Source of the DNA: Novosphingobium kaempferiae | Lineage (GTDB): Bacteria; Pseudomonadota; Alphaproteobacteria; Sphingomonadales; Sphingomonadaceae | DNA: 64,000 bases | Direction of reading: 5' to 3' | NCBI RefSeq assembly: GCF_021227995.1 | Contig: NZ_CP089301.1 | Span: 3,658,001-3,722,000, forward strand | Part shown: piece by piece, positions 20,667 to 21,635 of the stretch | Layout of the letters: every line of letters starts with the position of its first letter | Numbering within the stretch: position 1 is the stretch's first letter | Notes under the pieces: model-generated | The model's input: the letters and a program-made list of their open reading frames with translations, nothing else | Told to the model about the DNA's origin: nothing | The model's database searches: none | Position numbers and translations under genes: made by a program

Positions 20667-20699
20667 AATCCCTCCCCGAGACAAGCTCGGGGAGGGATT
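20667..20699 (+). terminator. Terminator after the YhhN-like gene
   Basis: A perfect 14-bp stem (AATCCCTCCCCGAG at 20667-20680 with CTCGGGGAGGGATT at 20686-20699) and 5-nt loop, 11 bases after the stop. A short TT follows the stem. It could act in both directions. Confidence 0.75.
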
Positions 20700-20721
20700 G
20701 GCGTTATCCGCACCCACACTT

Positions 20722-20796
20722 CGTCATTGCGAGCGCAGCGAAGCAATCCAGCGGCATAGAACTGCGCTGGATTGCTTCGCTACGCTCGCAATGACG
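20722..20796. repeat. 75-bp palindromic intergenic repeat, copy 2
   Basis: Same 31-13-31 structure as the copy at 2541-2615: left arm starts CGTCATTGCGAGCGCAGCGA, right arm is its reverse complement with one mismatch, and the 13-nt centre differs. It lies between the YhhN-like gene and the 3' end of the putative structured RNA. Confidence 0.9.
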
Positions 20797-20815
20797 AACG
20801 TCTGGAATGGACACA

Positions 20816-21229
20816 CGAAAACGCCCGCTGGCGAGTGCGGGCCTAACGCCGGGGAAGGAAACGCGAGGATCCGAGAGTGAACATCGGGTCGGCGTCGTGA
20901 GCGTCCGGACGGGACGCGGGGGTCTGGTTTCCACAGCGCGTTGCGAGTGGCCGGGTAGGTGCAGTCAGCCCGGCTCGACCTGTATTCCATCGGACCTGTC
21001 CGGTATGGCCGACGTTGGGGCTCGCGTCGGTATCGGTCATGGGACTTCCGGGAGAGCCGCTCCCAGGCCGATATACTCGGTTGGGGGAACGGCCGGGCCA
21101 GAGCCTAGAGGACGGTCCGGGTCTTCGATGGACACCGTGGTGCGTAGCTACGGCTTGATACCGCATCCCGGCCCACGACGCCGACCCGATACACCGTCGA
21201 ACCCTTGTACGTCAGGTCCGGCGGATGCT
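20816..21229 (-). ncRNA. Putative free-standing structured RNA, about 410 nt
   Basis: This 490-bp interval has no convincing protein. It has a near-consensus promoter on the minus strand at 21235-21262 and an intrinsic terminator at 20817-20842. Between them is a 17-nt perfect inverted repeat (20883-20899 with 21174-21190), extendable by three pairs including a G-U that only the minus transcript can form. Inside it lie perfect hairpins at 20901-20917, 20950-20974, 21009-21030, 21050-21064 and 21068-21080. At the 5' end ACCTGA and TCGGGT can pair in a competing stem, so two conformations are possible. I compared it with tmRNA, RNase P, 6S and SRP RNAs and found no match. The ends are estimated from promoter and terminator. 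Confidence 0.5.
20817..20842 (-). terminator. Terminator of the putative structured RNA
   Basis: On the minus strand GCCCGC (20842-20837) pairs with GCGGGC (20828-20823) across an 8-nt loop and is followed by GTTTTC. This is a typical intrinsic terminator with no gene ending just before it, which is why I assign it to the putative ncRNA. Confidence 0.65.
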
Positions 21230-21234
21230 GGGCC

Positions 21235-21262
21235 ATATAACCTATTTGGCGATATTTGTCAA
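21235..21262 (-). promoter_or_regulatory. Strong sigma-70-type promoter reading into the gap
   Basis: On the minus strand TTGACA (21262-21257) is separated by 16 bp from TTATAT (21240-21235). Both hexamers are close to consensus, unusual in this GC-rich sequence. The promoter starts 26 bases after the DUF952 stop and faces the non-coding interval, with an expected start near 21228. Confidence 0.65.
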
Positions 21263-21288
21263 GATCGCGAGGATATCCGCGGACGCTC

Positions 21289-21635
21289 TCAAGGAAGAAC
21301 GAGCACCCCATCGCTGTTTCGCTCGACCTGCGCATGAGCGATCACCGCCGAAAGCGGCAGATCGGCGTAGATGTGCGGGAACAGCGCGCCGCCGCGTGAG
21401 ACTTCCCACTTCACGGTGCTCCCCAAGGCCGCAAGATCGACGGCGGCGACGTGAAGGTCGTCCTGTCCGGCGAAATGCTTGTCCAGCGTGCCCTGCGCCT
21501 GCTCGGCGGTGGACATGTGGATGTAGCCGTCGGCCAGATCGACCGGGGCCCCTGCGAAAGTCCCGTCGGCGAGCAACCGCGAAAGCTGCTCGCCGGTCAA
21601 GATCTTATAAGCGACCGCAGGCGCGGCAGCGTCGG

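Follow-up and report, generated by a model that had tools for sequence, protein, structure and literature searches.

A structured element near gyrA

The window, i.e. the whole 64,000 nucleotide stretch of Novosphingobium kaempferiae DNA that was analyzed, displays an element at positions 20809–21262 of the minus strand, which is one of ten copies in this genome of a gene of about 440 bp. Upstream on the strand of the element are a DUF952 gene and gyrA (Pfam search), and the neighbour gene downstream lies on the opposite strand. A Pfam search of the neighbouring gene that the first-pass annotation called YhhN matched no family and gave no confirmation of that name.

The near-consensus minus strand promoter proposed earlier, TTGACA and TTATAT with a 16-nt spacer (positions 21235–21262), can be read directly and is kept in homologues. 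A scan for consensus promoters does not list it, because its −10 element has T, not A, at position 2. The promoter and the predicted transcript are laid out as follows.

21257–21262, minus strand: −35 element TTGACA, where homology of the ten copies starts
21239–21251, minus strand: palindromic operator CGCC-AAATA-GGTT, one half degenerate, between −35 and −10
21235–21240, minus strand: −10 element TTATAT, 16-nt spacer, by direct reading and conservation in homologues
20809–21228, minus strand: predicted transcript of ~420 nt, with a putative start ~7 nt past the −10 element and an end at the conserved 3′ tail

The gap had been described as having no credible protein and no riboswitch for a downstream gene, and both statements hold. 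Alignment shows that 1- and 2-nt indels separate the window copy from other copies in the genome, which argues against a conserved reading frame, and a 107 aa open reading frame has no match in a Pfam search; a protein-coding gene was dropped as a candidate on these grounds. A cis-acting riboswitch or leader was rejected because the neighbours vary between copies and the next downstream gene in the window is on the opposite strand.

Beyond the 3′ end of the element, positions 20720–20798 of the window display a 34-nt inverted repeat (97% complementary, 11-nt loop) that is MITE/REP-like. A palindromic repeat, CCTCCCCGAGCTTGTCTCGGGGAGGG, is found at approximately 20672–20698 and likewise trails many copies of the element.

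Copies in the genome

A nucleotide search of the single-contig, 5.70 Mb genome (G000; genomes are denoted here by G numbers and loci by L numbers) gave 59 matches, 10 long and 49 short. The long matches have 91–100% identity; seven cover the full query and three are without its first 20–67 nt. The short matches are ~40 nt or less, and many represent the opposite arm of the long helix described below. All ten aligned copies have in common the promoter, the body, a 3′ hairpin and ~13 nt past the hairpin, and no common sequence is seen upstream of the promoter in this alignment. Most of the ten are then followed by two other repeats, the 34-nt inverted repeat and a CCTCCCCGAG palindrome. The nine further copies, the palindromic operator and the wide distribution described below go beyond the first-pass annotation.

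Predicted secondary structure

The minus strand of the element has a minimum free energy of −201.3 and a z-score of −4.47, and 0 of 100 shuffled sequences fold as low. The plus strand values are −214.4 and −2.34, with 1 of 100 shuffled sequences as low. Among eight relatives the fold z-scores are −1.4 to −3.7, and three of them have the better score on the antisense strand, thus fold energy alone cannot fix the strand.

The 17-bp long-range inverted repeat noted previously (20883–20899 with 21174–21190) is real; a repeat-finding program lengthens it to 20 nt at 95%. The extension has one plus-strand A-C, which becomes G-U in the minus strand RNA, in agreement with the earlier reading that this pair can form only in the minus transcript. 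The helices and conserved segments of the model, from the 5′ end of the RNA, are given below.

21194–21224, minus strand: P1, 5′ hairpin CCGCCG...CGACGG, double changes in 4 of 6 pairs, one C-A mismatch in this copy
21174–21190, minus strand: P2, 5′ arm of the long closing helix, from inverted-repeat finding and pair counting
21143–21152, minus strand: self-complementary 10-mer CGUAGCUACG, palindrome preserved via double changes
21110–21119, minus strand: P6, 5′ arm CGGACCGUCC, double changes in 4 of 10 pairs
21021–21025, minus strand: P3, 5′ arm GCGAG, with which the broadly conserved motif GCGAGCC begins; crosses P6
20991–21001, minus strand: P6, 3′ arm GGACAGGUCCG, from pair counting
20969–20974, minus strand: P4, 5′ arm GCCGGG, from pair counting
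20950–20955, minus strand: P4, 3′ arm CCCGGC, from pair counting
20943–20947, minus strand: P3, 3′ arm CUCGC, putative, 0 pairs with double change
20912–20917, minus strand: P5, 5′ arm GCGUCC, from pair counting
20901–20906, minus strand: P5, 3′ arm GGACGC, from pair counting
20883–20899, minus strand: P2, 3′ arm of the long closing helix, from inverted-repeat finding and pair counting
20824–20841, minus strand: P9, 3′ hairpin CCCGC-ACUCGCCA-GCGGG, with YUCGCC as a loop core that hardly varies across the family
20809–20823, minus strand: conserved tail past the 3′ hairpin, approximately CGWTNNSGYGTGYCC, from alignment of element ends

The P1 stem is variable and its loop is of the GUACA/GAUCA type. 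In the model P3 and P6 would constitute a pseudoknot if both form. Another pseudoknot candidate, GGCG/CGCC at the 3′ end, was set aside; both of its strands are nearly invariant and covariation is uninformative. A two-state switch had been suggested, with the 5′ hairpin and the long helix competing for one strand, but in the counted model the conserved P1 shares no strand with the long helix, and the switch gains no support from this model.

The intrinsic terminator proposed for this locus stands in part. A terminator-like hairpin is present at 20823–20842, where 0.3 would be expected, and in the window the 3′ hairpin is followed by GTTTTC. The T-run is absent in many relatives, however, thus the conserved feature is the hairpin and not a U-tract terminator.

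Covariation and conserved motifs

Alignment A3 comprises 36 copies from nine Novosphingobium genomes, with helices written from the window sequence. The counted model has 58 pairs in nine helices (as counted by the tool) and 2069 cells. Pairing is found in 91.5% of the 2069 cells, compared with 87.4% in shuffled alignments and 33–42% in slid versions of the structure, over which the real version is favoured by having come from one of the sequences. Double changes are present in 104 cells (9–37 slid, 46.6 shuffled) and in 20 of the 58 pairs, and the covariation score is 0.170 as against 0.110 shuffled; relatedness of the copies inflates these counts. The pairing, double-change cells and score are each as high in 0 of 500 shuffles, and the number of pairs with a double change in 1 of 500. 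Further pair types are not above shuffles in A3 (143 of 500). Compensatory changes occur in eight of the nine counted helices, P3 being the exception, and the real pairing is far above the slid versions.

Thirty sequences have a particular 10-nt segment, and in 29 of them it is self-complementary. The alleles are CGUAGCUACG (11), CGCGAUCGCG (7), CGUGGACCACG (5) and others; 99.3% of its cells pair and 32 show a double change, with further pair types not above shuffles. The inner pairs are too close together for a hairpin loop, thus the simplest reading of the sequences is that the segment may pair between two RNA molecules, with counts that may rest on few independent changes.

The family 3′ hairpin is found at 124 of 171 distinct operator sites by a search that required at least four of five pairs and the loop YUCGCC. 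Among these 124 hairpins the stems are CCCGC/GCGGG in 80, UCCGG/CCGGA in 20 and UCCGC/GCGGA in 10. Cut contigs, other bodies, coding genes and departing loops are among the 47 sites without the family hairpin. Loops depart in elements such as L021, L022 and L122, thus YUCGCC is nearly, not strictly, invariant. Among 118 elements that carry a family stem, 95 have the motif GCGA[GA][CT]CC, as against 6 of the 118 when each is mononucleotide-shuffled once. The order GCGA..CC and then, some way further along, GGC..UCGC is seen in 46 of these elements and in 0 of the shuffled ones. An integron attC reading of the motif GTTAGGC was rejected, since relatives have GTTACCC, GTTATCC or GTAACGG there.

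Distribution in Novosphingobium and beyond

Searches used two models: R1 was built from 24 sequences of the 3′ end, and R2 from 27 sequences of the promoter region. In 99 genomes of the genus, that of the window included, matches at E ≤ 1e-4 are found with R1 in 24, with R2 in 41 and with both in 22, where several genomes had supplied sequences to the models and thus match by construction. At E ≤ 0.1 the numbers are 59 and 73 of 99 genomes for R1 and R2, respectively, chance matches included. R1 matches at E ≤ 0.1 number 25 in G025, 17 in G093, 15 in G037, 11 in G029 and 10 in the genome of the window. The R1/R2 search found nothing in many congeners, and the distribution across the 99 genomes is patchy, thus the element RNA is not a housekeeping RNA of Novosphingobium. 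Copies that were read have sizes of about 290–570 nt.

When the 3′ motif was scanned as an exact pattern, which misses divergent ends, over a collection of 84,980 species genomes, 48 stretches were obtained. They are named Novosphingobium, Sphingomonadaceae MAG, or MAGs assigned to no more than Proteobacteria or Pseudomonadota. Outside the family, coverage of the class comes from this motif scan. The exact 3′ motif has no match in viral contigs, and blastn with the window element has no match in phages. A search of plasmids with the window element gave one match, N. resinovorum pSA1, at two places; this plasmid (strain SA1) has a full-length copy with 74% identity.

The promoter-operator and other RNA bodies

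The operator consensus, AACC-N5-GGTT between −35 and −10, is derived from 27 promoters. The pattern TTGACA-N5-AACC-N5-GGTTA with at most one mismatch is found in 44 of 199 family genomes (that of the window and two congeners included) and in 29 of 96 genera; 15 of the 199 genomes have four or more sites, up to 23. A reversed control pattern is found in 11 of the 199 and never at more than two sites per genome. The exact palindrome TAACC-N5-GGTTA occurs at 40 sites in a set of eight genomes: 34 at elements, five elsewhere and one at a contig end. The reversed control gives 12 sites in the same genomes, thus stray operator sites are at chance level. In the genome of the window no element has the exact TAACC-N5-GGTTA, one half being degenerate, and the sole exact site is elsewhere; the case for the operator is based on the 27-promoter consensus and the family-wide pattern.

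No regulator was found via operators outside elements, and operator sites outside elements in G000 and G070 show nothing consistent. In G057 and G094, operator palindromes away from RNA elements (L206, L209) are located upstream of genes that by eye resemble homologous membrane-protein genes.

Loci with the promoter-operator do not all carry the same RNA body. When one locus from each of 20 genomes was read, six displayed the family 3′ hairpin (G230, G171, G112, G130, G167, G245), two were cut by contig ends, two were variants with another 3′ end (G255, G099), one had a G170-type body and nine were coding or unrelated by eye. Among 20 further stretches the family hairpin is present in two (G196, G258). 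Eight of the nine stretches from G101 share one different body and the remaining one is unlike the rest. Other bodies occur in G170 (three stretches), G238 (two) and G105 (one, where a single site out of eight was read), and bodies recur in G170 and G238. These other candidate RNA bodies are at L296–L302 and L304 (G101), L294 and L307 (G170), L310 and L312 (G238) and L314 (G105). In the remaining three of these 20 stretches the gene that follows is ilvC (two) or class II DAHP synthase (one).

The promoter-operator is thus more widely spread than any one RNA body, and as read from sequence it appears also to serve some biosynthetic genes. The latter cases, the targets that could be recognised, are from one related genus, with ilvC in two genomes (G170, G238) and class II DAHP synthase in one. 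They are the loci L306, L311 and L308; the leaders of L306 and L308 share AAATTCGCTTACTTGTTCAT.

Chromosomal slots and likeness of copies

As judged by the flanking genes of 76 elements, five of them with downstream flanks displaced by about 100 nt, the gyrA-DUF952 slot is occupied in G000, G029, G070 and G025, and a second slot in G000, G029, G070, G032 and G057. The gyrA slot is filled at four of 30 loci read (30 of 84 genomes with a DUF952 match). By eye, the gyrA slot of G032 (L178) probably holds the decayed remains of a 3′ end whose hairpin is interrupted by a 21-nt insertion. One chromosomal slot carries different bodies in different species: at L040/L139/L018 a type of 413–445 nt is present in G000, G029 and G057, and a subtype of 362–363 nt in G070 and G032. 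In another slot the element is inverted in G029 (L047) relative to G025 (L122) and G032 (L149).

Copies are mostly more alike within a genome than between genomes. Mean identity is 0.92 within G000 (10 copies), 0.82 within G029 (11), 0.80 within G025 (six) and 0.74 within G070 (four), versus 0.52 between genomes and 0.68 for the G000–G029 pair in the gyrA slot. In a tree of the 36 sequences the copies of G000, G029 and G025 each group, with supports of 0.990, 0.955 and 1.000; the first of these splits the ten G000 copies from the other 26 sequences. The G070 copy L145 groups with G035. Between close relatives, the slot-mates G070 L055 and G032 L057 are 0.938 alike, which is as alike as paralogues.

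No clear target-site duplications are seen. Flank words of at least 6 nt are shared in 11 of 77 elements compared with 13.2 expected. Words at the 5′ edge of these 77 elements are slightly above control (4 nt, 25 versus 19.5; 5 nt, 10 versus 6.4; 6 nt, 3 versus 2.0). Recent transposition was rejected on account of the lack of clear target-site duplications and the probable decayed 3′ end in the G032 gyrA slot. The favoured reading of the likeness within genomes is gene conversion, which would be accompanied by birth and decay of copies. If borne out, the replacement of entire RNA bodies within fixed slots would represent an uncommon mode of evolution for an RNA gene family.

Proposed function and alternatives

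The element is almost certainly a member of a multi-copy family of structured RNA genes. The explanation that accounts best for the data as a whole is a dispersed family of this kind with a regulated scaffold or RNP function, and this is considered probable. Each gene has its own sigma-70-like promoter with a palindromic operator of consensus AACC-N5-GGTT, through which a single DNA-binding protein could turn the whole set on or off jointly. The transcript (~400 nt) is predicted to fold into a compact domain closed by the 17–20 bp helix and to end in the hairpin with the YUCGCC loop. The RNA may be abundant, with a dose that follows copy number in the manner of rRNA genes. It could act as a free-standing scaffold or RNP, with a protein or RNA partner holding the 3′ hairpin and the GCGAGCC/UUCGC core, and possibly as a homodimer by way of the self-complementary segment. 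The scaffold mechanism is drawn by analogy and is offered tentatively, at somewhat less than even likelihood. Because the same promoter-operator precedes ilvC and class II DAHP synthase in a related genus, the RNA may be made according to growth or nutrient state, and the regulator perhaps also governs amino-acid biosynthesis in some genera. Copies within a genome would be kept alike, most simply by gene conversion.

The main rival to the scaffold reading is an RNA that titrates a protein, in which co-induced copies would sequester an RNA-binding protein through the 3′ loop and core in the manner of CsrB or 6S RNA. The shared operator would here give one switch for all copies, the nearly invariant loop on compensating stems has the look of a protein-binding site, and the promoter-operator before ilvC and the DAHP synthase gene in one genus fits as well. 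This reading is nonetheless judged unlikely. Positions 20700–21400 have no direct repeats of at least 12 nt (CsrB-type motifs are shorter than this), and there is no Rfam match to 6S or other families. Somewhat less likely again is a selfish repeat of the MITE or SINE sort, non-autonomous, with an RNA structure and a promoter that would help it to spread. The dispersed, multi-copy and patchy occurrence would follow from it, as would the slot with the inverted element (G029_L047 versus G025_L122 and G032_L149), the other repeats that trail most copies in the window's genome, and bodies that differ between genera. What lowers its probability is that slots are common to several species, that the structure is compensatory and that clear target-site duplications are lacking. 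Words shared by the two flanks show no excess in the 77 elements, those at the 5′ edge being slightly above control. In addition the window copy has no terminal inverted repeat of at least 12 nt, the G032 site is a probable decayed remnant and not a clean empty site, and the 3′ motif is unmatched in viral contigs and the window element in phages.

Two other readings are considerably less probable than these. A family of base-pairing sRNAs, in which the variable 5′ hairpin selects target mRNAs, would agree with the high variability of P1 in A3 and with some P1 types being common to different species, but the variable segment is largely a compensated stem (double changes in four of six pairs) and not a free guide. 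This reading is very improbable, and a guide-RNA reading of the same segment was dropped because it is largely stem maintained by compensation. Least probable of all, to the point of being nearly discounted, is a DNA element such as a nucleoid or replication site with palindromes that act as DNA. Conserved palindromic operators and hairpins in dispersed copies are what it would predict; the long-range P2 and P6 pairs with their compensatory changes and G-U tolerance, the better fold z-score of the minus strand in the window and the conserved −35/−10 arrangement are not. A bolder form of the scaffold reading takes the family as a new kind of RNA system, with up to about 25 chromosomal promoter-RNA cassettes per genome under one operator, in which constant ends would enclose exchangeable bodies and the products would pair with themselves into dimers or larger assemblies serving as nutrient-controlled scaffolds; this is regarded as speculative and unlikely.

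If transcribed, the element RNA may be one of the more plentiful RNAs in this group of bacteria, which is of environmental importance. The operator and the conserved 3′ loop offer direct routes to the regulator and the partner.

Comparison with known RNA families and elements

Searches against Rfam 15 (4227 families) were assessed by the gathering score, with the match inside the element. The whole window gives only a tRNA, far from the element. In the element region, taken to E 5, there are five sub-threshold matches, four of them on the neighbouring inverted repeat, and the sole one inside the window element is mir-1949 at E 0.75. Eighteen loci give two sub-threshold matches, both in L009 and outside the element, and in 13 loci two tRNAs and a suhB, each located outside the elements, reach threshold, together with ten sub-threshold matches. 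Thus no Rfam family is found at threshold within any element searched, and the first-pass remark that tmRNA, RNase P, 6S and SRP RNA gave no match agrees with this. No description of the element was found in the open-access literature, a coverage that excludes most subscription papers and bioRxiv. The suggestion of a new free-standing sphingomonad RNA family gains from the absence of an Rfam match, the compensatory changes, the kept promoter and 3′ hairpin and the absence of a kept frame. Rfam 15 thus has no match to this structured RNA, which is ~400 nt long and reaches 25 copies in a genome under a common promoter-operator.

CsrB/CsrC and 6S RNA are free-standing regulatory RNAs that act on protein, and suhB/mmgR and ar14 are free-standing alphaproteobacterial sRNA families. 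Unlike CsrB/CsrC and 6S, the element has no Rfam match and no direct repeats of at least 12 nt, and is present in far more copies. SuhB of Sphingopyxis granuli is a studied sphingomonad sRNA of 61 nt (PMC6563040). A suhB/mmgR sRNA gene, above the Rfam threshold, is present beside an element in G068 (L220, positions 2426–2503). The element differs from suhB and ar14 in that this suhB match and a weak ar14 match in L009 are both outside the elements.

MITE and REP-type repeats are dispersed, multi-copy and intergenic and have palindromic parts. The element is similar in all four properties. Unlike these repeats, it has no clear target-site duplications and displays a conserved promoter and compensatory long-range helices. 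As with rRNA operons, the copies are dispersed and alike within a genome and some slots persist across species; unlike rRNA operons, the copy number ranges from none found to 25 and is patchy.

OLE, ROOL and GOLLD are large ornate RNAs that form homo-oligomers with kissing loops; their families are included in Rfam, and ROOL and GOLLD are encoded in phages and prophages, as given in PMC12286853. The element has no Rfam match at threshold and is thus no member of these families by the Rfam test. In contrast to the three, it is chromosomal, with up to 25 copies per genome and a common promoter-operator, and in contrast to the phage-encoded ROOL and GOLLD it has no match in phage and viral collections at the sensitivity used. 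Here again there are likenesses. With 58 pairs in nine helices and a conserved promoter from which it would be transcribed, the element is a large multi-helix RNA gene; it resembles OLE, ROOL and GOLLD in a length of several hundred nt and an elaborate secondary structure, and the function of those RNAs is described as poorly known (PMC12286853). The homo-oligomers of these RNAs may have a counterpart in the self-complementary 10-mer of the element, which is kept by double changes and, as a hint from sequence alone, suggests self-pairing.
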